Below are positions 2,422 through 37,520 of a stretch of DNA of 42,319 nucleotides, one piece after another. This DNA is from a virus. Positions within the stretch are counted from its first letter, which is position 1, and each line of letters starts with the position of its first letter. The stretch covers positions 1-42,319 of the IMG/VR virus record IMGVR_UViG_3300031673_000146; one strand, 5' to 3'. Below the pieces are notes generated by a model. That model did no database searches. It was not told the DNA's origin and worked only from the letters and a program-made list of their open reading frames with translations. The position numbers were made by a program, and so were the translations under genes.

Positions 2422-2470
2422 AAAAATCCACATAGCATGTGTTAAAATGTGTTTAATATAGATAAAAGTA

Positions 2471-2478
2471 AGGACAAA
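2471..2478 (+). promoter_or_regulatory. Degenerate motif B upstream of tail tube gene
   Basis: AGGACAAA followed by GAAATAAA, 29 bases before the tube ATG. It matches only the first half of the AGGACAAACTTTAAA word, but lies in the expected place after the double terminator. Confidence 0.4.
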
Positions 2479-2499
2479 GAAATAAAAGGGAGGAATATT

Positions 2500-3228
2500 A
2501 TGGGAGCAACAAACGCATTTGCAGCTTTAAAGGAAAACAGGTTTTCAAGAAAATGGGGAGGTACTACAGCCGGAAGTACAGTAGATCCATATATATCAGG
2601 GTATTTTTTCACACAATGGGCATCAATACCATCTGACTTACAAACATATACTCAAATAGCTACTGAATCCGGAGTGAAAGATAATGACACTATAAAACAG
2701 GTTCTACACGCATCTTGTTTAGCAGTTACCATACCAGGTGGAACTGTTAATAAAGCAGAATTCACTGGATTGGGTGGTATAAAATGGTCAGTGCCTACAA
2801 ATGTAGAACAAGACAATACAGTAACACTTAAATTTTTAGAATTTTCAACGTTGCCTATTTTAGCAATTATGCATGGATGGGTAAGATTGATAAGAGATTA
2901 TAGAACAGGTGTAACTCCTCTCGTTGGAGCAGATGCCTATACAAAAAGTAAATATGCAGGAACTTTATATTATTGGACTACAAAACCAGATGGTTATACC
3001 GTTGAATATGGAGCATGTTTAACAGGAGTTTTTCCTCTAAAGGATCCAACCGATCAATATGGTGGAGATCTTGCAACTGTTGATAAGTTAGAGTTAGATA
3101 TAGATTTTAATGTTGATTATGTTTGGCATGAAGATTGGGTCATGGAACAATGTACAAAATATTCTGAGAGAGCATATGCTAATAAAGCAGCTACTGTAGA
3201 ATTATATGGAGCAACTGGCGCTAGATAA
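2500..3228 (+). CDS. Tail tube protein (gp19-like)
   Basis: 242-aa major tail tube subunit, inferred from position directly after the sheath gene and from sequence character: N-terminal FAALKENRFSRKWGG, a beta-rich middle (LAVTIPGGTVNKAEFTG, WSVPTNVEQDNTVTLKFLEF) and a C-terminal VDKLELDIDFNVDYVW strand, as expected for the tube beta-barrel. T4 gp19 is shorter (163 aa). The start is set at 2500 because GGGAGG at 2489-2494 is a good SD for it; an upstream in-frame extension to 2449 has no SD. Flanked by terminators on both sides, so probably transcribed alone, as suits a very abundant protein. Confidence 0.8.
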   Translation: MGATNAFAALKENRFSRKWGGTTAGSTVDPYISGYFFTQWASIPSDLQTYTQIATESGVKDNDTIKQVLHASCLAVTIPGGTVNKAEFTGLGGIKWSVPTNVEQDNTVTLKFLEFSTLPILAIMHGWVRLIRDYRTGVTPLVGADAYTKSKYAGTLYYWTTKPDGYTVEYGACLTGVFPLKDPTDQYGGDLATVDKLELDIDFNVDYVWHEDWVMEQCTKYSERAYANKAATVELYGATGAR

Positions 3229-4698: not shown

Positions 4699-4742
4699 TG
4701 TAGATATTCACATTAATATATTTTGAAGAGGTAGATAATTAT

Positions 4743-24284: not shown

Positions 24285-25763
24285 TTAAAATATTGATATA
24301 AAGCATCCTTCTTCTTTATCTTCATCATTATTTTCAGGTTCTGGATCAGGATTTATTTCTGGATCTTCATTTGGACAATCTATTACTCTATCACAGTTAT
24401 TATCTATACCATCATTACATATTTCAGTAGCATCTGGATTAATATTAGCATCATTATCATTACAGTCATTAGAATAAATAAAGCCATCTCCATCCTTATC
24501 ATAATTCAATGCACTAAATGCATCTATTCTACCATAACCATAAAATTCATCCCAGCCTATCAATCCAAGATCTACAGATGTATTATGAATAATGTTTCTG
24601 ATATCTGTTAAAGTTCGAGATGGTCCTTGTGATAAAAGTAATGCAGTTAATCCAGTCACATGTGGTGCGGCCATAGAAGTTCCAGTATAAAACCAAAATC
24701 CAAATTCTAGGTCGTTAGGATCGTTTATAGTTTGTTGTAGAATAGCATCTCCATATCCATCTCCATCTCTGTCTTCGTTATCACCACCAGGAGCAGTAAT
24801 CTCCAAATTAATACCATATTGAGAATAATCAGTTAAAACATCTTCAGAGTTAGTAGCACCAACAGATATAACTTCTGGATAAGCAGCGGGACAATCAACA
24901 ATATTAACTCCAGTATTGCCAGTAGATGCGACCATAATAACATTATTATCATGAGCATATTTTATAGCTTCAGTTACTATTGGAAGAAACTCTGGAGTAA
25001 TATCTGGTGAAAATCCTAAACTCATATTAATTATATTTGCACCATGATTAACTGCCCATTCAATTCCATCTGCAAGCTGAACAGAAGTTCCTTTACCTTC
25101 TCGATCCAATACTTTCACAGGCATAATTGATACACCATAAGCTATACCAGCTACCCCATAGTCATTATTTGTTGATTGACATATTGTTCCAGTTACATGT
25201 GTTCCATGCCCTCTATCATCATTTGCATGATAATCATCATTAACAAGATCGCGAGGATTACAAAAAGTAGTACCGACTAAATCAGGAGCCAATGAATATA
25301 TATCATAATCCTCATAGGCTATACCAGTATCTAATACTGCTACTATAATATCAGAAGAACCATATGGGTTAATATCCCAAGCTGTTTCCATACCTATCTT
25401 TGAGAAGTTCCACTGATATCCATAAAGAGGATCGTTTGGTGCAGAATGTGATTGACATATATAATTCAAATGAGCATATTCTACAGACGGATTATCATTG
25501 AGATAATTCACTGTCTCAATTTCATTCATTTCTGATGTACGAACCCTTCTAATTCTGGTAGATTTGTTGATAATAGATCTTCCTATTGGAGAAATAACAT
25601 TTCTGATCTCTTCCTGATTACATGTATCTTTAAATTTAACAATAACTTCTCCCTTAACATAATCTATCCCATTACTAATATTAATATCTTTGACTTGAAC
25701 TTCTGCAAATGCTAATCTTGTAAAAATAACTATTAATGTTACGATAAAGATTACTTTTTTCAT
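24285..25763 (-). CDS. Secreted subtilisin-like serine protease (S8) with MopE-type metal-binding tail
   Basis: 492 aa. Signal peptide at 1-20 (MKKVIFIVTLIVIFTRLAFA). Propeptide 36-105 (GEVIVKFKDTCNQEEI, inhibitor I9/fervidolysin type). Peptidase S8 domain about 120-415 with Asp145 (VAVLDTGIAY), His186 (RGHGTHVTG), oxyanion Asn283 (TGNTG) and Ser363 (GTSMAAPHVTG): a complete triad. Residues 422-463 form a Cys/Asp-rich MopE-like motif (DKDGDGF, DCNDNDANINP, ICNDGIDNNCD), followed by an acidic Pro/Glu/Asn linker and the end GCFISIF. Export by the host Sec route is implied. An unusual cargo for a phage; its codon and base composition look like its neighbours'. Overlaps the upstream gene by 4 bases (ATGA). 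Confidence 0.92.
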   Translation of the reverse strand: MKKVIFIVTLIVIFTRLAFAEVQVKDINISNGIDYVKGEVIVKFKDTCNQEEIRNVISPIGRSIINKSTRIRRVRTSEMNEIETVNYLNDNPSVEYAHLNYICQSHSAPNDPLYGYQWNFSKIGMETAWDINPYGSSDIIVAVLDTGIAYEDYDIYSLAPDLVGTTFCNPRDLVNDDYHANDDRGHGTHVTGTICQSTNNDYGVAGIAYGVSIMPVKVLDREGKGTSVQLADGIEWAVNHGANIINMSLGFSPDITPEFLPIVTEAIKYAHDNNVIMVASTGNTGVNIVDCPAAYPEVISVGATNSEDVLTDYSQYGINLEITAPGGDNEDRDGDGYGDAILQQTINDPNDLEFGFWFYTGTSMAAPHVTGLTALLLSQGPSRTLTDIRNIIHNTSVDLGLIGWDEFYGYGRIDAFSALNYDKDGDGFIYSNDCNDNDANINPDATEICNDGIDNNCDRVIDCPNEDPEINPDPEPENNDEDKEEGCFISIF

Positions 25764-26089
25764 TTCAAATCTCCCTTATATTTTTTGTTTTTATATGTTA
25801 TATAAGTAGAACTATGTATATTTTTAAAATGATCATAAGGTAGGACGGTATTTACTTTTTTCTCCCACGATGTATATACAACAATGATAAACATATCTTT
25901 AAACCTAGTTCTGAGTATGTATTGATATCCTCTATTAGGAACAAACTCTGATTTCAGCTTTGTGCCTTCCATGCAATGCTTACATAAATATCTATACTCT
26001 TCTATAGTTAAACATTTGTAATTATACCTTTCTCCCATCCTTTCTTTTGTGTGCTCATAACTATATCTAAAATCTTCTCTATCTTTCAT
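25760..26089 (-). CDS. Hypothetical small basic protein, toxin-fold-like
   Basis: 109 aa. The start EDFRYSYEHTKERMGERYNYKCLTIEEY resembles the H-x-x-E-R-x-x-E-R opening of DUF4258/RelE-like small proteins, followed by strands YQYILRTRF and MFIIVVYTSW; this is a weak similarity. It ends KKYKGDLK, close to but not matching the KYxLK tails of the family downstream. Its stop overlaps the subtilase start, so the two are translationally coupled. Preceded by motif A and AAGGAG. Confidence 0.65.
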   Translation of the reverse strand: MKDREDFRYSYEHTKERMGERYNYKCLTIEEYRYLCKHCMEGTKLKSEFVPNRGYQYILRTRFKDMFIIVVYTSWEKKVNTVLPYDHFKNIHSSTYITYKNKKYKGDLK

Positions 26090-26964: not shown

Positions 26965-27444
26965 CTATTTTAAATTATATTTTTTACAAATGAGTCTTGG
27001 ATCATTTATAATAATTTCATTCATTAATCTATCTATAATTGTATACTCAATGTCAGATTCAAATTCATGATCTTCAATTTCTTCTTCATCTATAAAATTA
27101 CCACATAAGCTCTTAAAAGAAGATGTGGGTTTGTTAAAATCAAAATTATAATCAAGATTGGTAAGATAAGAATAGGCATCCTTAAAACTAAATTGTATAT
27201 AAAATTTAGCATTTTTAATATTAAAAATATTGTTATTTATTCCATCGACATATTCATCAATAAGCATAGATAGAGGTATATATGTATCTAGGCGTCCGTT
27301 TATCGAAACCATTAAATAAACATACAAATTATTAAAAATTCTCTCATCTATAATTATATCATTATCCGCTGTTTTAAATTTTTCTAAACCATATTTTTTA
27401 ATATAGTTTTGAAATATTGTTACAAAATCTATCCTAGTTATCAT
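26965..27444 (-). CDS. KYxLK-tailed family protein (A)
   Basis: 159 aa ending LICKKYNLK. Alpha/beta body (IFNNLYVYLMVSINGRLDTYIPLSMLIDEY, FYIQFSFKDAYSYL) and an acidic segment (DEEEIEDHEFESD). Function unknown. The C-terminal nonapeptide matches the tails of ten other small proteins in 27.4-35.7 kb. The stop codon TAG lies inside the next gene's ATAGGAG SD, so translation is coupled to the metallophosphoesterase. Confidence 0.75.
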   Translation of the reverse strand: MITRIDFVTIFQNYIKKYGLEKFKTADNDIIIDERIFNNLYVYLMVSINGRLDTYIPLSMLIDEYVDGINNNIFNIKNAKFYIQFSFKDAYSYLTNLDYNFDFNKPTSSFKSLCGNFIDEEEIEDHEFESDIEYTIIDRLMNEIIINDPRLICKKYNLK

Positions 27445-27454
27445 ATTAATTCTC

Positions 27455-27826
27455 CTATTTTAAACCATATATAGCACCAAAAGAGTTACCATTTTTGTTT
27501 AAAAATATTTTTAAACAAAATATAATCTTATCGCAGTTAGCATCATCTGACTTATTTATTATATCATTAAATAATTCCAAACTTCCTATCCAATTTCTTA
27601 TTAAATAAACATAAGAATTAGGTCTGACTTTTAATCCTTCCATTGAAACTCTTATCACATATCCTTTAACATCATGATACCACAATGAAAAATTTACTGC
27701 ATAATTTCCATTATACACAACTTCGGCGTTTTGAAGATTGAAGCTTTCAGAATATAAATAAGAACCATACATTCTTTCGATAATATTATTATCAACAAAA
27801 CAATCCAAAAATTCATCATATAACAT
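27455..27826 (-). CDS. KYxLK-tailed family protein (B)
   Basis: 123 aa starting MLYDEFLDCFVDNN; GAAAGGA places the start at ATG 27826, and a longer upstream frame lacks an SD. Ends SFGAIYGLK, the only tail with Ile for Lys before Tyr. Body beta-rich (YAVNFSLWYHDVKGYVIRVSMEG, SYVYLIRNW). Its TAG stop is again embedded in an AGGAG for gene A. Confidence 0.72.
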   Translation of the reverse strand: MLYDEFLDCFVDNNIIERMYGSYLYSESFNLQNAEVVYNGNYAVNFSLWYHDVKGYVIRVSMEGLKVRPNSYVYLIRNWIGSLELFNDIINKSDDANCDKIIFCLKIFLNKNGNSFGAIYGLK

Positions 27827-27861
27827 AATATTCCTTTCGATATAATAGTTTACATAAAAGA

Positions 27862-27901
27862 CAAACAAAAAAGAAAGCTAATTTAAATATTAACTCTCTT
27901 T
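27862..27901 (-). terminator. Probable terminator after the lipoprotein gene
   Basis: Leftward hairpin of 13 positions with two mismatches (27889-27901 pairs with 27870-27882) followed by a TTTTTT tract. Weaker than others, so some readthrough into gene B is likely; no clear motif A lies between it and B. Confidence 0.5.
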
Positions 27902-27918
27902 TCAAAAAATCTTTTATA

Positions 27919-28188
27919 CTACAATTCTTCTATAATATAAGTTCCAGACAACTTTACCTCTTTACCATTATCTATAAACGCAGCAGCATCGCCGTTCATC
28001 TCAACAAGAAATCTACCTTCCCATTCTTTGATAATTCCACCATTACAGTTATATAATGTCACTCTCCGTTTCAATCCAATTGTACCAGATTTGAAGTGTT
28101 TGATTTGTTTATTACAACCCTCACACCCGATGAAAGACATAGAGAATACAAGTAATAATACTACTAATAAAGATTTAAAACATTTCAT
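27919..28188 (-). CDS. Small lipoprotein
   Basis: 89 aa with a lipoprotein signal: basic MKCFK, hydrophobic LLVVLLLVFSMSF and lipobox F-I-G-C with Cys22. After the lipid anchor, a second Cys pair (EGCNK) and a beta-rich domain (GTIGLKRRVTLYNCNGGIIKEWEGRFLVEMNG) with small SH3-like strands. Phage lipoproteins of this size (T5 Llp is the model) commonly block superinfecting phages; that role is inference. Carries its own motif A and a downstream terminator, so it can be expressed alone. Confidence 0.8.
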   Translation of the reverse strand: MKCFKSLLVVLLLVFSMSFIGCEGCNKQIKHFKSGTIGLKRRVTLYNCNGGIIKEWEGRFLVEMNGDAAAFIDNGKEVKLSGTYIIEEL

Positions 28189-28235
28189 GGTACTACTCCT
28201 TTAAAAAAAGATTAATAATAAGTATTATATTAATA

Positions 28236-28252
28236 TTTAATATATATAATAG
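28236..28252 (-). promoter_or_regulatory. Motif A promoter-like element for the lipoprotein gene
   Basis: Sense CTATTATATATATTAAA, abutting the macro-domain stop at 28253. The leader contains TTATTATTAATCTTTTTTTAAAGGAG. Confidence 0.65.
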
Positions 28253-28708
28253 CTATCTGGTTAATTCCACCAAAGTATGATTTTCACCACTTAATTCCTC
28301 ATCTATAATATTCTTAATGATATTCCAATCACCACCAGCCAAGCCAGCTCCAATTTTTGGGTATCCTATTCTTTTCCCACCGAACTTTGTTTTGACAATT
28401 TTAAAAACATGTCTAACAGCATTATAATCTACAAGAGGTTTTTTGCCTTTGTAATTGTACTGTGTATATCCATTAACAATTGTCAATTTGTGATTAAATA
28501 GTTTAATATTTACATATGTACCATTTCCTAATTTAGATCTTGCTCCATATTCTGATTTCCGATCTATTAAATATGCTTCTGGAAAATTTTCTTTTATAGA
28601 TTTAGCTATTCCAGCTCCCATAGTACAAAAGCAATTACACCCATGTACTATAACATCAAATTCACCATCTTTGGCAAGATTTATCAAATTACCTTTAACT
28701 GTTTTCAT
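28253..28708 (-). CDS. Macro-domain protein (ADP-ribose-phosphatase / de-ADP-ribosylase type)
   Basis: 151 aa, a single macro domain. Key motifs: GNLINLAKDGEFDVIVHGCN at 6-25, CTMGAGIAKSI at 28-38 (the glycine loop at the distal ribose) and IGYPKIGAGLAGGDW at 114-128. These match the Poa1/TARG1-like branch that removes ADP-ribose or dephosphorylates ADP-ribose-1''-phosphate. In a phage it could counter host ADP-ribosylation defences or recycle ADP-ribose products of NAD-consuming systems. No partner ADP-ribosyltransferase is visible here. Lies downstream of KYxLK genes E, D and C in the same operon. Confidence 0.9.
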   Translation of the reverse strand: MKTVKGNLINLAKDGEFDVIVHGCNCFCTMGAGIAKSIKENFPEAYLIDRKSEYGARSKLGNGTYVNIKLFNHKLTIVNGYTQYNYKGKKPLVDYNAVRHVFKIVKTKFGGKRIGYPKIGAGLAGGDWNIIKNIIDEELSGENHTLVELTR

Positions 28709-28730
28709 TATTATCCTCCTAATCTATTTC

Positions 28731-29078
28731 TTACTTTAAAGAATATTTTATTTGCATTATTCCCTCTTTAGTAAATATAATCTCTAATAATTTATTTGTA
28801 ATAGTCTCAATATCACAATCATGATTATCAATAGCATTCTCAATTTCATCTGTTAGGTTGTGATCGTCTACAAATATATAATACACACTTCCACGGGATT
28901 GGAATCCAAAAACCAATATAAAATCTTCAGTTTTCTCAATAAAAGAAATAGTAACACATTCTGATCCTTCTTGACAAAATGTACCTTGTTTGACAATATA
29001 ATAATTATCATAAGACCAAATACTTTTCTTTATACATAAACCTTTATCCATGTATGGTTTAAGCAACTTTTCTAACAT
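28731..29078 (-). CDS. KYxLK-tailed family protein (C)
   Basis: 115 aa ending GIMQIKYSLK. Body beta-rich with Cys (NYYIVKQGTFCQEGSECVTISFIEK, FILVFGFQSRGSVYYIFVDD) and a C-terminal helix before the tail. Unknown function. Good SD. Directly upstream of the macro-domain gene. Confidence 0.75.
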   Translation of the reverse strand: MLEKLLKPYMDKGLCIKKSIWSYDNYYIVKQGTFCQEGSECVTISFIEKTEDFILVFGFQSRGSVYYIFVDDHNLTDEIENAIDNHDCDIETITNKLLEIIFTKEGIMQIKYSLK

Positions 29079-29109
29079 AATAACTCCTTTTAAATATTTT
29101 TAATTATAA

Positions 29110-29502
29110 CTATCTTAATCCATATTTGTGACTCATAAAATTACGCGTATCACCAACAACTAGTTTGAATAATGTTTCAATGAGTCTATTTTCTTTTACA
29201 ATACTTATATCATCAGGATATACAAAGTTAGTTATTTCTGAATTAAAATAAATACCAGACGGTTTAAATCCAAATTCTCTCAACACTTCTTCAAATATTT
29301 CTTTTTGTAAGAACCAATCAAATTGAAATTTTGTTCTAAAAATATCTATCTCTAAAAATAAGTCATTTCCAAATTTACCCAAGTTTATATAAGTTCTAAA
29401 TCCAGATGATGTATATATGTACTCTAATTTGTGTGCAATCTCTATACCAAAACTTTTATAGAATGATATTATATCATCATTTTTATTTATATGTATATTC
29501 AT
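29110..29502 (-). CDS. KYxLK-tailed family protein (D)
   Basis: 130 aa ending NFMSHKYGLR. Body similar in layout to E, G and H: YINLGKFGNDLFLEIDIF, then FQFDWFLQKEIFEEVL, matching their Y-x-[DN]-L ... F-x-W-x-x-x-K-[DE]-[IFY] pattern. SD GAGAGGG spaced 9 from ATG. Unknown function. Confidence 0.75.
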   Translation of the reverse strand: MNIHINKNDDIISFYKSFGIEIAHKLEYIYTSSGFRTYINLGKFGNDLFLEIDIFRTKFQFDWFLQKEIFEEVLREFGFKPSGIYFNSEITNFVYPDDISIVKENRLIETLFKLVVGDTRNFMSHKYGLR

Positions 29503-29516
29503 TTAATAAACCCTCT

Positions 29517-29924
29517 CTATTTAAGATTGTATTTCTTAGCCATGATATCCTTTCTCTTATTAATCATAAAAAATATAAACGATTCTAAAATATCTGCTTC
29601 CAGTTTTGGTATATCAGTATCTTTATTAATAGTATTATTAGTAAAAAATATCTCCTCACCTTCCTCTGTAATTTCTATGTCCCAAAAATAATTATGTACT
29701 GATAATATATCAACAAAATCTTTTTTAGAATATATCCATTCAAATAAAAATGTTTCATCTTCAGCATAATCTTTTATAAATAGGAATAATCCTTCCTTGT
29801 TACCAACTCTAACAAGATCTATATATATATTGGCTGAAAGATAGCTATATATACAATTCATAGCCATAGGAAACGAATAATAATTCTTTAATTTAAATTT
29901 TTCCATGTATTCTTTTGTATTCAT
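29517..29924 (-). CDS. KYxLK-tailed family protein (E)
   Basis: 135 aa ending DIMAKKYNLK. Internal YIDLVRVGNKEGLFLFIKDY and FLFEWIYSKKDFVDIL align by eye with G and H (Y-[FI]-D-L-[IV]-R and F-E-W-x-x-x-K-K-D-[FY]-V-[DN]-I-L), so E belongs to the same family. First gene after a motif A element. Unknown function. Confidence 0.75.
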   Translation of the reverse strand: MNTKEYMEKFKLKNYYSFPMAMNCIYSYLSANIYIDLVRVGNKEGLFLFIKDYAEDETFLFEWIYSKKDFVDILSVHNYFWDIEITEEGEEIFFTNNTINKDTDIPKLEADILESFIFFMINKRKDIMAKKYNLK

Positions 29925-29955
29925 AATTTAAAAACTCCTTTTTCTTATTATATAA

Positions 29956-29972
29956 TTTAATATATATAATGA
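29956..29972 (-). promoter_or_regulatory. Motif A promoter-like element for E-D-C-macro operon
   Basis: Sense TCATTATATATATTAAA, immediately after a strong terminator and 32 bases before the ATG of gene E. Confidence 0.65.
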
Positions 29973-29982
29973 AAAAATTTTT

Positions 29983-30019
29983 ACAAAAAATAGGAGGAGT
30001 TTTTATACTCCTCCTATTT
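29983..30019 (-). terminator. Strong terminator closing the 35.7-30.0 kb operon
   Basis: Perfect 13-bp stem AAATAGGAGGAGT/ACTCCTCCTATTT (29988-30000 with 30007-30019) with a six-base loop, then T-rich sequence leftward. The stem contains AGGAGG, so it would also hide an SD-like word. Confidence 0.85.
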
Positions 30020-30030
30020 TATAATAACTA

Positions 30031-30219
30031 CTAAAGAATACCAGCCAAAGTCAGAATAGTAATAACTCCTATGACAATCTGAAGGAAATTCATAGCTCTA
30101 TTACAGTTGACTAAAGGCAATGTGTCATCCGAAACAATATTTAAAGAACAAGCTAATATAACAACATCATACCAAACATATAATACAAACATTATAATAC
30201 CATGCATACTAATAGACAT
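30031..30219 (-). CDS. Small two-helix membrane protein
   Basis: 62 aa starting MSISMHGIIMFV; GGAAGGA sets ATG 30219 rather than the upstream in-frame start. Two hydrophobic helices (GIIMFVLYVWYDVVILACSL; FLQIVIGVITILTLAGIL) around a short loop with DDTLPLVNCNR. Unknown function. Start follows the 46-aa gene's stop by 1 base. Confidence 0.65.
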   Translation of the reverse strand: MSISMHGIIMFVLYVWYDVVILACSLNIVSDDTLPLVNCNRAMNFLQIVIGVITILTLAGIL

Positions 30220-30220
30220 T

Positions 30221-30361
30221 TTAATCCTTCCGTACAAATAAACCAGTTAATATTCCAAACAACATCCCCACTACCCAAAACAAACATGGATCTTTAAATC
30301 CAAGGTAGTTTTCCATAATCGTTCCTATAATTGTACTTATCGCTATTATGATATATTGCAT
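30221..30361 (-). CDS. Small two-helix membrane protein
   Basis: 46 aa: MQYIIIAISTIIGTIMENYL then GFKDPCLFWVVGMLFGILTG and LFVRKD. Two short hydrophobic helices with a basic end. AAGGAG SD. Sits between two other membrane genes; together they may form one membrane module. Confidence 0.6.
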   Translation of the reverse strand: MQYIIIAISTIIGTIMENYLGFKDPCLFWVVGMLFGILTGLFVRKD

Positions 30362-30371
30362 ATTATACTCC

Positions 30372-30794
30372 TTATATATCAGTATTGTATAAAGGTCCTT
30401 CCCTAAAGGTAAAGAATGAATCCAATACAGATTTCAATTTAGTTAGAGATGTAAGAGAAAAATAACCATCTATATAATTCCTCTCCATAAACAACCTAAA
30501 ATCATCAGTATTTGTAAGGCTGTTAAACTCGTATACAAATGCAAGATTTGTCTGGAAGTTTTCATCTTCGTTAGCAGAGATTAATAATTTAAAGATATCT
30601 TTCATTATAGGATTATCTTTGATCCTTTCGGGGAATTCTTTGAAAGAACAAATACAATCATAAATAACTGAGCTAGTATAATCTTCTTTTGTAGATAATC
30701 CTGATATAATATGATCAATTAATGATACTACAAAAAGTAATGCAATATATACAAGTGATGCTATTAGAATTATTAACATAAAATCTTGTAACAT
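30372..30794 (-). CDS. Membrane-anchored hypothetical protein
   Basis: 140 aa. One N-terminal membrane helix (FMLIILIASLVYIALLFVVSL, residues 5-25) then a soluble helical region (DEDFQTNL-like acidic patches, FMERNYIDGYFSLTSLTKLK). No family recognised. Its leader AAGGAGGTATCTAAAATG is identical to that of the HNH-like gene at 31849-32187, a local duplication of the translation start. Confidence 0.65.
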   Translation of the reverse strand: MLQDFMLIILIASLVYIALLFVVSLIDHIISGLSTKEDYTSSVIYDCICSFKEFPERIKDNPIMKDIFKLLISANEDENFQTNLAFVYEFNSLTNTDDFRLFMERNYIDGYFSLTSLTKLKSVLDSFFTFREGPLYNTDI

Positions 30795-30839
30795 TTTAGA
30801 TACCTCCTTAATATAAAAATATATTAAATTTTTTAAAAG

Positions 30840-31103
30840 TTAGAATGCAGCTATTCCAAGTGTTAATCCAAAGGTTGGGCCTGATGCAGTTGTTTTGAAT
30901 TCAGAAACTTCTTCTATAGCTGAATTAGAAATTTTCTTAACATAATTTTGTTTGTAGTAAACATATCCACCATTTAAACCAAGTTCAACATTTTTACCAA
31001 GTATGAAAACCAAACCACCTTTAATACCAACTTGCCAACAAAGGCCCCAATCGCTTTTTTCAGAGGAAATATCTTCATCATAATCAATTGTGTATTGACC
31101 CAT
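30840..31103 (-). CDS. Outer-membrane beta-barrel-like fragment
   Basis: 87 aa. Alternating strands GLCWQVGIKGGLVFILG, VELGLNGGYVYYKQNYV and PTFGLTLGIAAF look like the last strands of a small outer-membrane barrel, with the C-terminal Phe that such proteins use as the Bam assembly signal. There is no signal peptide and the N-terminus is short and acidic, so it looks like the tail of a longer protein or a remnant. SD is poor (TTGGA). May be a decayed gene of host origin. Confidence 0.5.
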   Translation of the reverse strand: MGQYTIDYDEDISSEKSDWGLCWQVGIKGGLVFILGKNVELGLNGGYVYYKQNYVKKISNSAIEEVSEFKTTASGPTFGLTLGIAAF

Positions 31104-31129
31104 TCCAATTTAATTAAAAGTGGTTAATA

Positions 31130-31798
31130 TTATTTTTGTTCATAAACATTATAAAATTTTCCAGAATGTTCTACTACTGTTTCGACATTGCTTGTAATTG
31201 GTTCTATAAGGATAAGTTTATCATCTAGGTAATACCCACCATCTTCAATAGCCTTTTTTATAAAGAATGAATCTACCTTAAATAATATTGCATTGTCTAC
31301 TTTTTGTGTTATAAGACCAGTAGTTCCATAGAGAGAAGTAGAATCCAGTGATGATACTGAAAAATTTATATTATCTCCAGTATATGTATGAATTCTAACC
31401 CTGAATTTATTTGGATTATGAGAATTTAGAAGATGCTCAGGAACAGATTTTATGGCTCCTTTGGTGTAATTACGACCGTTCTCTTGAAATTCAACAATAT
31501 ATGTTAAGAAGTAATCATACCTATCTGGGCCAAGATAACTGTATTCTTTAACACTACGTTGAAGATTCTTATCTACAACTTTTACAATTACGCCATTATA
31601 TTCTAACATATCTCCAATAGCAAATTTTCCAACCATTTTTAATTCTGGACTATCATCTTCAACTCTTTGTAAAAAACTTGAATTAGAATAAAGCTCTCTC
31701 ATACAATAGTATATTTTCAAGTTACCACTATCAATTTGTTTATATACTATTTTTACAATAGATCCATTTATATCAATAAGCTCATTTATACAAAACAT
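31130..31798 (-). CDS. Hypothetical protein with SH3-like repeats and a shared C-terminal domain
   Basis: 222 aa. Two similar strands at INELIDINGSIVKIVYKQI and IGDMLEYNGVIVKVVDKNL suggest duplicated SH3/KOW-like units. Residues about 130-222 (FRVRIHTYTGDN, VDSFFIKKAIEDGGYYLDDK, TVVEHSGKFYNVYEQK) match the C-terminal domain of the proteins at 36199, 36898 and 37248. GGAGG lies only 1-2 bases before this ATG, so the true start could differ, yet no better start exists in frame. Confidence 0.65.
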   Translation of the reverse strand: MFCINELIDINGSIVKIVYKQIDSGNLKIYYCMRELYSNSSFLQRVEDDSPELKMVGKFAIGDMLEYNGVIVKVVDKNLQRSVKEYSYLGPDRYDYFLTYIVEFQENGRNYTKGAIKSVPEHLLNSHNPNKFRVRIHTYTGDNINFSVSSLDSTSLYGTTGLITQKVDNAILFKVDSFFIKKAIEDGGYYLDDKLILIEPITSNVETVVEHSGKFYNVYEQK

Positions 31799-31848
31799 TC
31801 CTCCGATTTCTTTATATTCTTTCCATACATCGTTTAGGTCATTTCCAA

Positions 31849-32187
31849 TTACAGTATATGCATCTTACTATGATCAGAGTGATTCATAACTTCTATATTA
31901 TCTAATATATTACAAGTATGATCTCCATTTATATGATGAACTACTTCCTTTTTATGAGCGTGTATTGATTGCAACTCGTTGGTTTTCATTTGTTCATAAC
32001 ATTTACGAAGAGTAGAAAGTTCCTCTTCGATAGAGTTTTTCAAAGATGCTTTTTCACGTATTCTTTTCAATATAGAAGACAAATTTCCTGAAACCTTGGC
32101 TTCACGATCACCTAACTCTGAATAAGATTTTCTAAGATTCTTTATTTTATTTTTAAACTCTTCTTCATTAATATTTTGTTCTGACAT
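31849..32187 (-). CDS. Coiled-coil protein with HNH-like C-terminus
   Basis: 112 aa. Residues 8-75 are a long charged coiled coil (KNKIKNLRKSYSELGDREA, EEELSTLRKCYEQMK). Residues 80-112 read EVVHHINGDHTCNILDNIEV then MNHSDHSKMH, matching the HNH pattern H-H-x-N-G-[DN]...D-N-x-x-x-[NL]...H-x-x-H with H84/H85, D96/N97 and H106/H110. HNH domains are metal-dependent nucleases; this short version may be a homing-type nuclease end or a degenerate DNA-binding remnant. The N-terminal DNA-binding part of homing enzymes is absent. SD AAGGAGG. Confidence 0.7.
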   Translation of the reverse strand: MSEQNINEEEFKNKIKNLRKSYSELGDREAKVSGNLSSILKRIREKASLKNSIEEELSTLRKCYEQMKTNELQSIHAHKKEVVHHINGDHTCNILDNIEVMNHSDHSKMHIL

Positions 32188-32188
32188 T

Positions 32189-32554
32189 TTAGATACCTCC
32201 TTTGTAGTTTGTGATACATTGATTTCGTCTATCGTTTAGATAAATAAAATCAGCAAAATATAAAAACTTACAATCATCGAATTCAAAAGTTATCCATCCA
32301 TTACCAACATCAGTGATATTTGTAGATTCATATGGAATATAGTTTTGTTTATTCTGCAATTGTTTTGTCGTATGTTCTTCCTTTGAAATTTTATTTGTTA
32401 TTATATTACGCGCAACGATATTACCACTCATAACAACTAGGGATATTATCAATATGAAACATAAAACCTTTAAAGGTATTACAATTTTTGAAGGAATCAT
32501 GATATATCTTTGCTTTTTAGAAGATCTTTCAACTATTGATCTATTGTCTTTCAT
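32189..32554 (-). CDS. Single-pass membrane protein
   Basis: 121 aa. Basic cytoplasmic N-terminus (RSIVERSSKKQRY), one membrane helix (VIPLKVLCFILIISLVVMSGNIV, residues about 25-48), then an outer beta-rich domain (GWITFEFDDCKFLYFADFIYL) with two Cys. Type II topology expected. Unknown function. Its stop lies 1 base from the HNH-like gene's start. Confidence 0.65.
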   Translation of the reverse strand: MKDNRSIVERSSKKQRYIMIPSKIVIPLKVLCFILIISLVVMSGNIVARNIITNKISKEEHTTKQLQNKQNYIPYESTNITDVGNGWITFEFDDCKFLYFADFIYLNDRRNQCITNYKGGI

Positions 32555-32569
32555 TTATGTCTCCCTTTA

Positions 32570-32758
32570 TTAATTAGAACTTATTGCTGATAAGTCTTCT
32601 TCAAAAAGATCATGAATATCTTCTCCAGTATCCAAATCTATAATATCATAAAGAATCATAGACTTATCATGACTTAAATTATAACCGGTAACTTTAAACG
32701 ATTCATCCTTACCTTCTATTATGTTTCCTATCTCATATTTAATTTTTAAATTTGTCAT
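32570..32758 (-). CDS. Hypothetical small acidic protein
   Basis: 62 aa starting MTNLKIKYEIGNIIEGKDE. The start at 32758 follows the 79-aa gene's stop directly with GAGG before it; a longer frame into that gene has no SD. SH3-like opening (YEIGNIIEGKDESFKVTGY) and acidic end (DTGEDIHDLFEEDL). Not recognised. Confidence 0.6.
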   Translation of the reverse strand: MTNLKIKYEIGNIIEGKDESFKVTGYNLSHDKSMILYDIIDLDTGEDIHDLFEEDLSAISSN

Positions 32759-32759
32759 T

Positions 32760-32999
32760 TTACCAATCCTCATCTTCTTCTTCATCTTCTTCATCTTGAC
32801 TAGGATATACAGGCCATTCACCTTGTATCTGCCCACAGTTAAGACACCAAGTTAATTCTATATAATCACCTTCGCCTATTCCTATATCACCAGGAACATA
32901 TCCATCAAAATCTTTTCCTTCTATGAAACCGTTATTACAATCAGATGTTTTTCCACTAATATTAGCAATTCTGTTGCTACCACACTGTTGACAACCCAT
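32760..32999 (-). CDS. Small zinc-ribbon protein of a common phage type
   Basis: 79 aa. CQQC at 3-6 (MGCQQCGSNRIANISGK) and CLNC at 52-55 (WCLNCGQIQGEWP) are the two halves of a zinc ribbon, with GYVPGDIGIGEGDYIEL between. This arrangement recurs in many phages as an uncharacterised protein. The very acidic tail (SQDEEDEEEDEDW) is unusual and may mimic nucleic acid. Good position between two coupled genes. Confidence 0.75.
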   Translation of the reverse strand: MGCQQCGSNRIANISGKTSDCNNGFIEGKDFDGYVPGDIGIGEGDYIELTWCLNCGQIQGEWPVYPSQDEEDEEEDEDW

Positions 33000-33001
33000 A
33001 A

Positions 33002-33352
33002 TTATTTACCTCCTTGGTTTAAACAATTAAGTGCATTTGTCAATGACGAAATTTTATTCTTTAAAGCTTTTTCTTTAGAATTAATTCTATCTTGTTTTTG
33101 TTTTTCTATTACTTCAGAGACTCTATCGGATTGATCTAGAACTTCCTTTATAGTGGCTTCAAGAACAACTAATTTTGGACATTCATGATCAGGAAAATTT
33201 TTCTTCCAATAAGTTACTTGTGCTTTTGCTGGTCCAACGGACGTATAAATTCTTGCTGTCTTTATTCCATCGACCCAACTTTTTCCACTACCAGAAAATC
33301 CTTTTGCTCTCATAAATTGACCATCACTATTCATTAATGCAAACAATTCCAT
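33002..33352 (-). CDS. Hypothetical protein with helical C-terminus
   Basis: 116 aa. The first 75 residues are alpha/beta (FALMNSDGQFMRAKGFSGSG, TARIYTSVGPAKAQVTYWKK, PKLVVLEATIKEV), the rest a charged helix (IEKQKQDRINSKEKALKNK). Similar small proteins with the same opening occur in other phages, but I cannot name a family. SD AGGGAG. Confidence 0.65.
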   Translation of the reverse strand: MELFALMNSDGQFMRAKGFSGSGKSWVDGIKTARIYTSVGPAKAQVTYWKKNFPDHECPKLVVLEATIKEVLDQSDRVSEVIEKQKQDRINSKEKALKNKISSLTNALNCLNQGGK

Positions 33353-33369
33353 TTTATTTATCTCCCTGT

Positions 33370-33477
33370 TTATATAGTTAATATCAAAACATGTTTTGCA
33401 ATATTCAATGTAATAACTATTGTATATGGACTAAGAACAATAATTATAAACACAATACCAGCTATAAAATTTTTCAT
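33370..33477 (-). CDS. Very small membrane protein
   Basis: 35 aa: MKNFIAGIVFIIIVLSPYTI then VITLNIAKHVLILTI. Almost entirely hydrophobic, with one or two membrane helices. Preceded by AAGGGA. Placed between KYxLK gene F and the 116-aa gene. Confidence 0.5.
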   Translation of the reverse strand: MKNFIAGIVFIIIVLSPYTIVITLNIAKHVLILTI

Positions 33478-33501
33478 TCTATTATCCCTTTTTATAAATA
33501 T

Positions 33502-33789
33502 TTATTTTAAGTCGTACTTCTTTTTTAACACATTCCTATAATTGACATTCATTTTTTTGCGAAACTGTTCCACGTTAAATAAATCCTCATCATAAATATT
33601 AGTAAAATACTTGCAACCACAATATGTTATTACCTCTTTATTAACTACAATACATGTACTTTGTCTATAATCTTCCCAAAAGTCTGTGTGAATAGATATA
33701 AGTCCACCTCTCCAACACATACCTTGATCTAATAAACATTCAATTACTCCTATGTACTCATCGATAGTTTTAGTGTTTATTGCAAACAA
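33502..33789 (-). CDS. KYxLK-tailed family protein (F), TTG start
   Basis: 95 aa ending NVLKKKYDLK. Clear paralogue of I, J and K: KTIDEYIGVIECLLDQGMCW, FWEDYRQSTCIVVNKEVITYC, VEQFRKKM. No ATG fits; TTG 33789 lies 9 bases after AAGGAG. Function unknown. The conserved [ST]-CI-x-[IV] and ITYC core suggests a small alpha/beta fold. Confidence 0.75.
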   Translation of the reverse strand: MFAINTKTIDEYIGVIECLLDQGMCWRGGLISIHTDFWEDYRQSTCIVVNKEVITYCGCKYFTNIYDEDLFNVEQFRKKMNVNYRNVLKKKYDLK

Positions 33790-33812
33790 AATTTATTCTC
33801 CTTATAAATTAA

Positions 33813-33915
33813 TTATTCTAAATGACATCTATATTGACCATAATGGCACACTGTATTATACTTACAACTTCTACAATTAGTACTTTCAAGAAGAATGTCT
33901 TTTATTATAATACAT
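33813..33915 (-). pseudogene. Frameshifted small Cys-rich (zinc-finger-like) gene
   Basis: AGGA and ATG 33915 start MYYNKRHSS-stop, but the +1 frame continues DILLESTNCRSCKYNTVCHY then GQYRCHLE-stop at 33813. Removing one A from the AAAA run in the fifth/sixth codon would join them into a 33-aa protein with C-x2-C-x5-C-x6-C. Either a real one-base disruption, an assembly/sequencing slip in a homopolymer, or slippage during expression. Confidence 0.45.
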
Positions 33916-33928
33916 AATCGTTCCTATT

Positions 33929-34312
33929 TTATCTTAGATCATATTTTTTACCGAATGCATATTTTACAGGTATATTAACAAACTGCATAATCTCTTCCAA
34001 TACTTCTTCATGGTTATCATTAACTTCGAAAATATCTCCTTCCATCGGTTTTCTATATAGGATATTTACATAGTCTTTTTTAAAACCAAGCCATTCGAAA
34101 GTATATCTTATCGAATTACAGTCAGGATATAAAACTATGGATAAGTATAATTCTGTTTCTTTTACTTTTGATAGTCTAATTAAATCAAAATAAGCAATAT
34201 TAACATAACCTCTCTTGAAATTACATTTAGCAACATACCAAGGTGATTGATTTGGATTATAATAATTGAATAGGTTGTAATTTATAATATAATGGTTTAT
34301 TATATCAAACAT
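33929..34312 (-). CDS. KYxLK-tailed family protein (G)
   Basis: 127 aa starting MFDIINHYIINYN (AAGGAG sets ATG 34312), ending AFGKKYDLR. Obvious tandem duplicate of H: shared MFDIIN, CNF, AY-x-DLI, IVLYP, RYTF-x-W, EEVLEEIM-x-FV and KKYDLR. Mixed alpha/beta, Tyr-rich. Function unknown. Confidence 0.8.
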   Translation of the reverse strand: MFDIINHYIINYNLFNYYNPNQSPWYVAKCNFKRGYVNIAYFDLIRLSKVKETELYLSIVLYPDCNSIRYTFEWLGFKKDYVNILYRKPMEGDIFEVNDNHEEVLEEIMQFVNIPVKYAFGKKYDLR

Positions 34313-34324
34313 CAACTCTTCTCC

Positions 34325-34711
34325 TTATCTTAGATCATATTTTTTCTTAAATATATCTTTTCCATCATATATAACAAATTCCATAATCTCTTCCAATACT
34401 TCATCCTGTTTATATTTAACAATATAAATATTTCCTAATAGTCTATATTTATTTTGCAAAATATTACGAAAATCTTTTTCGTCGCCATACCATTTAAAAG
34501 TATATCTATATGGATTCCTATATGGATATAATACTATATATAAATACAATTTAGAAGATTTTGTATTAGTAATATTAATTAAATCAATATAAGCATGATG
34601 CCCACCAAAGTTATTAAAATTACATTGAACGATATACCTTGCGTTTTGATACATACTATAATGATTTACTAATGTGTAAATTTCTACATAATTATTTATT
34701 ATATCAAACAT
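34325..34711 (-). CDS. KYxLK-tailed family protein (H)
   Basis: 128 aa starting MFDIINNYVEIYT (AAAGGAG sets ATG 34711), ending DIFKKKYDLR. Duplicate of G with about half of positions changed but with the tail unchanged in protein. The tail DNA is almost the same as in G, as expected of a recent pair, but differs from F and I, which also end in KYDL. Confidence 0.8.
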   Translation of the reverse strand: MFDIINNYVEIYTLVNHYSMYQNARYIVQCNFNNFGGHHAYIDLINITNTKSSKLYLYIVLYPYRNPYRYTFKWYGDEKDFRNILQNKYRLLGNIYIVKYKQDEVLEEIMEFVIYDGKDIFKKKYDLR

Positions 34712-34745
34712 CAACTCTCCTTTACCCAATAGTTATCAAACAAAA

Positions 34746-35057
34746 TTATTTCAAATCATACTTTACCTTGAATTTATCTCTAATAATATCTATGATTTGA
34801 GAACTAAACTCTTCTGTACTGATTATAATTTTACCATAATGACTTTTGGCATACTCTTCGCTACAATATGTTATATAGTTATACTCTCTATCTTTTACAT
34901 TAATAATAATATACATTTTAGACCTATAATCTTCCCAATAATCTTCATTGATACTATTACTACTATTACTCCAGAATATGTTTTGGTCTATAGCCCATTT
35001 TACTACAAACAAATAATTTTCAAGTGTAGGTGTATGTATACACTTAGTTTTAAACAT
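34746..35057 (-). CDS. KYxLK-tailed family protein (I)
   Basis: 103 aa ending DKFKVKYDLK. Paralogue of F, J and K: IHTPTLENYLFVVKWAIDQN, INEDYWEDYRSKMYIIIN, ITYCSEEYAK. The HTPT-x-x-[DN]Y-x-x-V-x-x-W opening is shared with J and K. SD AAGGAG. Function unknown. Confidence 0.8.
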   Translation of the reverse strand: MFKTKCIHTPTLENYLFVVKWAIDQNIFWSNSSNSINEDYWEDYRSKMYIIINVKDREYNYITYCSEEYAKSHYGKIIISTEEFSSQIIDIIRDKFKVKYDLK

Positions 35058-35078
35058 ATTGATTTCTCCTTTTTTGTA

Positions 35079-35390
35079 TTATCTCAAACCATACTTCACA
35101 CCAAACATATTGGCAAAATTACTTTTAGAAAAATTATAAAATTGTTCTATGGTTAATATATCCATTGTAAGATTATTTTTAGCATATATTTTACTACAGT
35201 AAGATATTACGTCTTTCATAATTATAATACATGTTTCATTAGAAAAACACTTCCAACGAATTTTATCAATACGTTTACATCCAGAAGCCCAAAATATATC
35301 TTGATTAAATGCCCATTTAATTACTTCTATGTAATCTTTTTGTGTAGGTGTGTGTACAATTATAGGTAGTTCATCTATTTTTATTGACAT
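35079..35390 (-). CDS. KYxLK-tailed family protein (J)
   Basis: 103 aa ending NMFGVKYGLR. Paralogue of F, I and K: VHTPTQKDYIEVIKWAFNQD, IFWASGCKRI, TCIIIMKDVISYCSKIYAK. SD AGGAG. Function unknown. Confidence 0.8.
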   Translation of the reverse strand: MSIKIDELPIIVHTPTQKDYIEVIKWAFNQDIFWASGCKRIDKIRWKCFSNETCIIIMKDVISYCSKIYAKNNLTMDILTIEQFYNFSKSNFANMFGVKYGLR

Positions 35391-35409
35391 GGTTAATTTC
35401 TCCTATTAA

Positions 35410-35718
35410 TTACTTCAAACCATACTTTAAACCAAAGCTGGTTTTAGTACATTTATAGAACTGTGTCATATTAATTGGACTCCTATTATAAGTAACTATG
35501 ACATAGCCTACGCTACAGTATGTTACTACATCGCTAATTGTAATACATGTATTTTCCTTATGATTATCCCAATAATCTTCATTGATATTAGTATCTCCAG
35601 TTGCCCAAGTTATTTTTTGGGCAAGATACCAATTAATTACAGTTATATAGTCTTCAATAGTAGGTGTATGTATAACTGTATGAATACTGTCTCTATAGTA
35701 TATTTTAGCTCTTAACAT
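35410..35718 (-). CDS. KYxLK-tailed family protein (K)
   Basis: 102 aa starting MLRAKIYYRD (GGAG 10 bases before ATG 35718; this length matches I and J), ending SFGLKYGLK. Paralogue of F, I and J: VIHTPTIEDYITVINWYLAQ, WATGDTNINEDYWDNHKENT, VVTYCSVGY. First gene of the long leftward operon headed by motif A at 35770. Confidence 0.8.
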   Translation of the reverse strand: MLRAKIYYRDSIHTVIHTPTIEDYITVINWYLAQKITWATGDTNINEDYWDNHKENTCITISDVVTYCSVGYVIVTYNRSPINMTQFYKCTKTSFGLKYGLK

Positions 35719-35769
35719 ATTAATTATCTCCATATTTTTAATTATAAAATAATGATTATCTTATTAATA

Positions 35770-35786
35770 TTTAATATATATAGTAA
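35770..35786 (-). promoter_or_regulatory. Motif A promoter-like element for the K-to-30031 operon
   Basis: Sense TTACTATATATATTAAA, followed by TATTAATAAGATAAT, 52 bases before the ATG of gene K. No strong terminator is seen until 30.0 kb. Confidence 0.65.
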
Positions 35787-36198: not shown

Positions 36199-36795
36199 CT
36201 AATCCATATTCACTAACTCAAAATATTCATCGCCTATCTTTACAGTTTGCATAAAATTAGTAGTAGGTTTAACTCTAATGAGACGACCATTAAAATAAAA
36301 TGCTCTCTGTTTAATGATTATACTGGAATAATAAGAACTAAGCTTTTCTACCATACTTGGATTTGCATCTTCACCAGGAGTATAAAAGGTTGTGCTAAAT
36401 TCCATAAGTTTATCTATTACTAATACAACTACTCTACCATCAGTTGAACCATGTGTATAAATACAAATATGTACATCATCCATTTCCAGATTGTTAGTGA
36501 CTGGTGTAGGATTAGTTGGATGGTTTTCTTTTTCACTAGCCAATATTATATTCAAAGTATTTCGTAAATCTGTAAGTTTAAGTTGAGTACTTTGTATAGA
36601 ATGTTTGGTTGTTTTAATTTTGTGTGCCAATGTATATATACCTTGGTTCACCATATCAATATCTTCCTGAAGTCTTTTTCTATAATTCACAATAGTCAGA
36701 TATTTTTCAGAATCTATTTTAAACTGTGACTCCAAATTTTTCAGTGACTCTTCTTTTGATTTAATGGTTTTCTCTATGTTGTTTTGGTTTATCAT
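36199..36795 (-). CDS. Coiled-coil protein with a repeated C-terminal domain
   Basis: 198 aa starting MINQNNIEKTIKSKEESLKN. Residues 1-85 are a coiled coil (LNLESQ-type heptads to RNTLNIILASEKE). Residues about 105-198 (HICIYTHGSTDGRVVVLV, SIIIKQRAFYFNGRLIRVKP, TVKIGDEYFELV) match the domain in the proteins at 31130, 36898 and 37248. Coiled coil plus small domain suggests an oligomer that displays the domain. Function unknown. Confidence 0.68.
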   Translation of the reverse strand: MINQNNIEKTIKSKEESLKNLESQFKIDSEKYLTIVNYRKRLQEDIDMVNQGIYTLAHKIKTTKHSIQSTQLKLTDLRNTLNIILASEKENHPTNPTPVTNNLEMDDVHICIYTHGSTDGRVVVLVIDKLMEFSTTFYTPGEDANPSMVEKLSSYYSSIIIKQRAFYFNGRLIRVKPTTNFMQTVKIGDEYFELVNMD

Positions 36796-36897
36796 TATCA
36801 ATACCTTTCTTGTTCATGGTTTGAAGTTAATATCCATTTTAAATACTACTTTTTATATATGTTTAGAGAACAATCTGTTCCAATATAAAGGTTTAAT

Positions 36898-37182
36898 TTA
36901 CATCGATAATTTGTAACTCTGGGTATTCCAATCACAAAAATAGTTTTCACCAATACCTTCTTTTTGCAATCTTACATACTGGTCATTGAAATAAAAACCA
37001 CCTTGTTTAATAGCTACATCTATATAACTCCTATGCATATTAAAAAGTACTGTAGGAGTCACAACTTCGCCATATGTATTGATGCGTTTATGGGCTGCAC
37101 AATGTATACTATTATTAGCTACTAATACCCAAGCATATCCTGAATCTATTACATGTACATATATTTTTATATAAGCATTCAT
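36898..37182 (-). CDS. Stand-alone copy of the shared small domain
   Basis: 94 aa starting MNAYIKIYVHVIDSG; TTGGAG sets ATG 37182. Nearly the whole protein is the domain shared with the ends of the 222-aa and 198-aa proteins: IKIYVHV, PTVLFNMHRSYIDVAIKQGG, FYFNDQYVRL and a final YKLSM. Function unknown. Confidence 0.68.
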   Translation of the reverse strand: MNAYIKIYVHVIDSGYAWVLVANNSIHCAAHKRINTYGEVVTPTVLFNMHRSYIDVAIKQGGFYFNDQYVRLQKEGIGENYFCDWNTQSYKLSM

Positions 37183-37247
37183 TTTATAAATCTCCAATCT
37201 TGATTGTTATAGGGTTTTAATTCTTTTCATAATTATACTATGTACTT

Positions 37248-37520
37248 CTAACCTTTTAACATTATTATCTTTGTTAAAGTTGCATCACGACTGTACACAT
37301 ATCCATTTAAAACGAATTTCTTATCTTGGATTATTCTATCCAAAAGATCTGTATTAATACTCCGTATACAATCAGGTCCTATATTTGGATAACCTGATTT
37401 AACATCGACTTGAACTTGATAACTAATTAAGGTTCCATTTGCAATATAAGAAGTTAATATAATACTATGACTCCCTTTGTTAATAACATCTATGTTTACC
37501 AATGAGTTTATAGCTGACAT
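37248..37520 (-). CDS. Stand-alone copy of the shared small domain, diverged
   Basis: 90 aa starting MSAINSLVNIDVINKG behind a strong AAAGGAG. Strand-rich (HSIILTSYIANGTLISYQVQ) then SINTDLLDRIIQDKKFVLNG and YVYSRDATLTK, aligning loosely with the [IV]-x-x-x-I-x-x-x-x-F-x-[LF]-[ND] core of the other three copies. First gene of its operon; motif A and the TTATTAATCTTTT leader precede it. Confidence 0.68.
   Translation of the reverse strand: MSAINSLVNIDVINKGSHSIILTSYIANGTLISYQVQVDVKSGYPNIGPDCIRSINTDLLDRIIQDKKFVLNGYVYSRDATLTKIIMLKG

Follow-up and report, generated by a model that had tools for sequence, protein, structure and literature searches.

Eleven small proteins of a large contractile phage end in one and the same short peptide, and this peptide has been shown to be a modular element, selected as protein and carried by at least two unrelated small bodies as well as by singletons. 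The DNA under study, here called the window, is the 42,319-nucleotide IMG/VR virus record IMGVR_UViG_3300031673_000146, which represents part of such a phage, with tail sheath and baseplate genes and a T4-type terminase. The shared ending, referred to below as the tail, has the full consensus [ND]-h-[FMLI]-x-x-K-Y-[DGNS]-L-[KR]-stop from position -10 (h, hydrophobic). With about even chances of being right, we propose that its last ~10 residues are a modular, phage-specific C-terminal docking peptide through which diverse early proteins are brought together on a single partner. The eleven genes, all on the minus strand and spanning 26965-35733, are given below with the last ten residues of each product; the likely starts chosen by Shine-Dalgarno sequence include 27826 (not 27868), 34312, 34711 and 35718. 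A possible degenerate member was left out of the count.

35410..35718, minus strand: family A, TSFGLKYGLK at 35413-35442
35079..35390, minus strand: family A, NMFGVKYGLR at 35082-35111
34746..35057, minus strand: family A, DKFKVKYDLK at 34749-34778
34325..34711, minus strand: family B, DIFKKKYDLR at 34328-34357
33929..34312, minus strand: family B, YAFGKKYDLR at 33932-33961
33502..33789, minus strand: family A, NVLKKKYDLK at 33505-33534
29517..29924, minus strand: family B, DIMAKKYNLK at 29520-29549
29110..29502, minus strand: marginal family B, NFMSHKYGLR at 29113-29142
28731..29078, minus strand: singleton body, GIMQIKYSLK at 28734-28763
27455..27826, minus strand: singleton body, NSFGAIYGLK at 27458-27487
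26965..27444, minus strand: singleton body, RLICKKYNLK at 26968-26997
25760..26089, minus strand: possible degenerate tail gene, ending YKNKKYKGDLK and missed by the tail profile

The eleven shared endings are confirmed as first observed. All those listed in the original prediction are found at their stops, as are FG[AVLK][KI]Y in four tails and the two codon spellings of KYDLK; the hydrophobic residue that it placed three to four positions before the tyrosine is also present, but its spacing is corrected to exactly four in every case. Specifically, position -8 is hydrophobic in 11/11 tails (F in six, M in three, L and I in one each), the residue before tyrosine is lysine in 10/11 and isoleucine once, and position -10 is N or D in 7/11, followed by a mostly hydrophobic position. 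The tails are basic (+1 to +4) and the bodies mostly acidic, with a median isoelectric point of 6.1.

In a six-frame scan of the window, Y-x-[LIVM]-[KR]-stop closes exactly eleven open frames of at least 60 codons, namely those of the tail genes, and all remaining matches belong to frames of at most 22 codons. Likewise, a 13-residue tail profile ranks the eleven C-termini first, with expectation values (E) of 1.6e-4 to 2.4e-3, the next match being at E 0.34. Given a background probability of 4.6e-4 per gene for YxL[KR]-stop, the occurrence in 11/48 genes has a probability of 5e-27 when all are taken as independent and of about 2e-11 when each body family counts as one event (5/43). In other words, the ending is commoner than chance allows, and chance is ruled out even when just five bodies are taken as independent; for two families alone the value is 1.7e-4, or 3.5e-7 for the fuller motif. 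A score of at least 22 over the last eight residues is reached by 23/2278 gene pairs of the window, versus 1 in ~9,500 pairs from relatives, which are fragmentary.

The bodies were compared by Smith-Waterman z-scores after removal of the tails. Family A comprises four genes (33502, 34746, 35079 and 35410) with mutual z above 20. Family B, with three to four genes, is built on the pair 33929 and 34325 (z 37), which is joined by 29517 (z 7.5-10) and marginally by 29110 (z 3.4). The remaining three to four are singletons, of which 26965 reaches z 4.2 to 34325, while 27455 and 28731 have no body similarity at all. Bodies of A and B score about 0 against each other, and when their alignments are compared by hhalign the match is confined to the last 23 residues (E 5e-5). 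These scores and profiles bear out the claim of at least two unrelated body families; no body homology across all eleven was found, A, B, 27455 and 28731 being mutually dissimilar. Moreover, one family A member lacks four residues just upstream of an intact tail. The distance from the tail to the terminus is thus kept despite upstream insertions and deletions, which argues for a modular peptide.

Similarity searches add an outside view of family A. Its body resembles an 81-residue protein of Leuconostoc phage 1-A4 (D4N4K7; Foldseek E 6e-4, TMt 0.78), which is about one tail length shorter than the 95-103 residues of family A, and more weakly the DUF3310/'kinase' proteins of Listeria phages (E 0.02-0.05). 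A weak look-alike in the close relative G004 (E 0.026) has a different ending. The family A body thus resembles a known small domain that occurs in other phages without this tail. Two family A genes weakly match phrog_9112, while phrog_33901 gave no match. Among the tail proteins there was no Pfam match at the curated cut-off and no credible PHROGs or NCBIfam match; a PADLOC search gave nothing convincing, no relative of family B was found, a PDB fold search with both AlphaFold models gave no match, scans of the family A and family B alignments against IMG/VR returned no relatives, and tblastn searches of INPHARED with two of the tail proteins found none. A scan for the tail's DNA pattern hit 11 contigs, mostly out of frame, and its in-frame hits (L042, FKDKYNLK; L033, FEKKYNLK; L035) are single, chance-like cases. 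No account of a tail like this one turned up in a literature search of limited coverage.

A different explanation of the common ending is that the bodies are versions of a single, rapidly diverging fold, of which the tail would be the conserved final element, or that the tail is a segment for dimerisation; either way, what is retained would be architecture and not an address. A last helix followed by the tail is indeed a common layout, and family B is so divergent that the singletons could be remote members. The AlphaFold models, obtained with 7 and 4 sequences, reached a predicted local distance difference test (pLDDT) of 81.7 and 77.9, with body blocks at 73-90 and 75-89 and final residues at 57 and 40, so that the last 7-8 residues are of low confidence on otherwise confident bodies (57 for the last block of 34325; below 50 for residues 98-103 of 34746). 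In the model of 34325 a short helix covers part of the tail, as the single-fold explanation would have it. On the other hand, the order of secondary-structure elements differs between A and B, the two families align at the tail alone, and family A relatives elsewhere, such as the 81-residue Leuconostoc protein, stop at or near the domain end. The comparison of predicted structures, a check named in the original prediction, thus gave a low-confidence tail end on confident bodies of both families and no single fold; the models fit an exposed terminal peptide, and retained architecture appears unlikely.

The conservation acts on the protein. Leucine at -2 is spelled TTA, TTG, CTA or CTT, and codon identity between families, observed versus expected from codon usage, is 0.23 versus 0.29 for L, 0.72 versus 0.78 for Y and 0.27 versus 0.70 for K. 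Between families, therefore, synonymous tail codons diverge at least as much as codon usage would predict, which bears out selection at the protein level as originally proposed.

The timing of expression can be approached through two promoter-like motifs. The class E motif, [CT]TATATATATTAAA[CT], stands before small non-structural genes and the class L motif, AGGACAAACTTTAAA, before structural genes; because of the kinds of genes that each precedes, class L would be late and class E earlier. Both recur in relatives, class E 22 times in the 201 kb of G012. Their sites in the window, and the three class E motifs that head the runs containing the tail genes, are the following.

545, 3299, 4683 (plus strand); 17726, 17047, 16260, 41881 (minus strand): class L sites
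39804, 38680, 37578, 35782, 29968, 28248, 26183, 22421, 22219, 594 (minus strand); 41914 (plus strand): class E sites
35770..35782, minus strand: class E motif TATATATATTAAA, promoter-like, heading the run 35733-33502
29956..29968, minus strand: class E motif, heading the run 29924-28253
28236..28248, minus strand: class E motif, heading the run 28188-26212

All tail genes (11/11) lie downstream of class E motifs, and no class L motif within two mismatches occurs in the tail region. These data bear on a possibility raised in the original prediction, that the tail is a capsid-targeting tag by which proteins would enter the head and be injected from it, as the T4 internal proteins are, the tag being C-terminal. 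In favour of this explanation, the tails are basic, and the T4 internal proteins are likewise a diverse, host-adapted anti-defence set of small proteins with only a targeting peptide in common (PMC3012670). The T4 signal, however, is an N-terminal propeptide of 10-20 residues removed by the prohead protease, whereas the peptide of the window sits at the extreme C-terminus. The non-late promoter class and the mostly acidic bodies, which contrast with the basic T4 internal proteins, argue against virion packaging, so that the suggestion is weakened and capsid targeting is now improbable.

The same promoter class would suit a C-terminal degradation signal that shortens the life of early proteins, the tail being C-terminal, short and apparently unstructured. 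Such a signal would leave the conserved aromatic and hydrophobic spacing unexplained. Moreover, the known bacterial C-degrons end in ssrA-like hydrophobic LAA or MuA-like RRKKAI, which the tail does not resemble, and a degron is very unlikely.

For the docking peptide a simple arrangement can be envisaged. After the last helix of the body, the tail would form a short amphipathic turn that has a basic terminus, L at -2 and, along one face, F or M at -8 together with Y at -4. This turn might insert into a pocket of a partner common to all the proteins. A fast-changing set of early host-interaction proteins would thereby be collected at one place. Because related phages bear other shared endings, this partner is probably encoded by the phage itself and coevolving. 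In encapsulins, cargo-loading peptides are short C-terminal addresses on unrelated cargo; their consensus differs from that of the tail, and the likeness would be conceptual only. In working principle the tail may be nearest to the T4 internal proteins and to the C-termini of T4 gp43, gp33 and gp55, which carry a sliding-clamp-binding motif interchangeable between proteins (PMC2988020); membership in neither system is claimed. With the latter it shares a short C-terminal peptide on unrelated proteins, a phage with a related terminase and, possibly, tethered docking (PMC2988020). The T4 clamp motif, however, is hydrophobic and acidic and found on a few replication and transcription proteins including the polymerase, whereas the tail is basic and found on eleven small proteins. 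The window has no polymerase, gp33 or gp55 genes, and a DNA polymerase piece of the relative G012 ends QFAFQF, unlike the G-h-h-[IL] ending of that phage described below.

A search with the sheath gene returned eleven relatives, and larger ones were found by a scan for the class E motif with a ribosome-binding site: G012 (201 kb, 63% sheath identity), G013 (275 kb, 55%) and G017 (321 kb, 48%). Terminase and the phosphoesterase-like gene 26212 found no relatives as IMG/VR queries, and the macro gene retrieved one 207 kb contig, which is unrelated.

In G013, an array of some 30 small genes, mostly ATGA-overlapping (L108, 27-10289), contains 24 whose products end xhxhGhxh (for example LDIIRKGISI, LDILSQGVVI and NWVYNKGGVVI), together with a gene at 4703 that we take to be thyX-like. 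Among start-overlapping genes, G at -4 is found in 22/22 within the array and 5/34 outside it (P 4e-11), [DN]hh at -9 to -7 in 14/22 and 1/34 (P 7e-7), and a final I, V or L in 22/22 and 14/34. Two proteins of G013, 63 and 152 residues long, match only in their last 19 residues (E 0.004). The case for a shared ending in this set, analogous to that of the window, is strong. G012, where the case is weaker, has about a dozen small proteins with the ending G-h-h-[IL] (for example FDIINSRGFML, YSIINSKGLIL and YKNINSRGIII), several of them without an overlapping ribosome-binding site. Their genes are interspersed, as judged by eye, with topoisomerase-like and single-strand-binding-protein-like genes.

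160270-160739, 174646-176278, 181843-182966, 189447-192845 and 200299-201056: small-gene sets of G012

No such ending cluster was found in G017. At 139398-142840 this phage has four tandem paralogs of the tube-like gene 2449-3228 of the window, adjoining a sheath protein enlarged to ~1200 residues. By eye, D-I-F-K-K-K-Y-D-L-R and D-I-I-R-K-G-I-S-I match in spacing, a lead rather than a result. Since relatives carry differently spelled shared endings, a search by a single consensus, as put forward in the original prediction, would miss the wider phenomenon.

Overlaps of this kind raise the question of whether the ending is a DNA-level effect, that is, whether it supplies the following gene with a ribosome-binding site or a recombination seam. 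This holds partly in the G013 array, where the ribosome-binding GGA of the next gene and the ATGA overlap fall within the ending, but overlapping genes outside the array do not have it. In the window, the Shine-Dalgarno sequence for the gene that follows is found at the stop of the tail gene or past it, at variable distance, the tail codons vary, and non-tail genes of the same runs end otherwise. Overlap with a ribosome-binding site is accordingly rejected as the cause in the window, but retained for G013 as a contributing factor; a DNA-level explanation of the tail, already disfavoured, is the least probable of those considered.

Several points weigh against the docking peptide. The overlap in G013 just described is one of them. 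In addition, the AlphaFold inputs are thin (4-7 sequences), and low pLDDT may mean thin data, not exposure. The close relatives end at window position ~21.6 kb, short of the tail genes, and none spanning the tail region was found. The G012 set, which was picked by its ending, is modestly enriched and suggestive only: the frequency is 11/260 there and 4/535 in a comparison set made up of G017 and an unrelated phage of Flavobacterium (P 0.0014). Comparison of the tail with the G013 or G012 endings gave an hhalign probability of 0.04%, so that a link between the endings of these phages would rest on pattern, homology being without statistical support.

As for the surroundings, the tail is restricted to small proteins without obvious membrane spans, and genes of the same runs with a secreted, membrane or enzymatic look do not carry it: the lipoprotein 27919, the subtilase 24285, the macro domain 28253 and the phosphoesterase-like 26212. 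The subtilase, with a signal-like N-terminus, a fervidolysin-type prodomain and a MopE-type metal-binding motif, is probably secreted. Three neighbouring genes apparently have another C-terminal segment in common.

24285-25763, minus strand: subtilase (Peptidase_S8)
27919-28188, minus strand: small putative lipoprotein, with a G013 homolog at 98855-99133 (E 6e-5)
28253-28708, minus strand: macro-domain protein among the tail genes, with weak homologs in the relatives G013 and G007
36199-36801, 36898-37197 and 37248-37520, minus strand: neighbours with FYFNGRLIRV, FYFNDQYVRL and FVLNGYVYSR

Hundreds of small early genes in large phages lack an assigned function, and a shared terminal peptide is a handle on them. 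By exposing the partner they have in common, one peptide pull-down could assign dozens of orphan proteins to a single pathway. A broader and more doubtful possibility is that a clade of large myophages uses address labels, in which a C-terminal peptide peculiar to each phage would mark fast-evolving small early proteins, a coevolving phage-encoded hub would act as its reader, and new bodies would become functional once labelled. Should sister phages prove to have different labels, the label-reader pairs would also show how new proteins are added to a phage's takeover machine.

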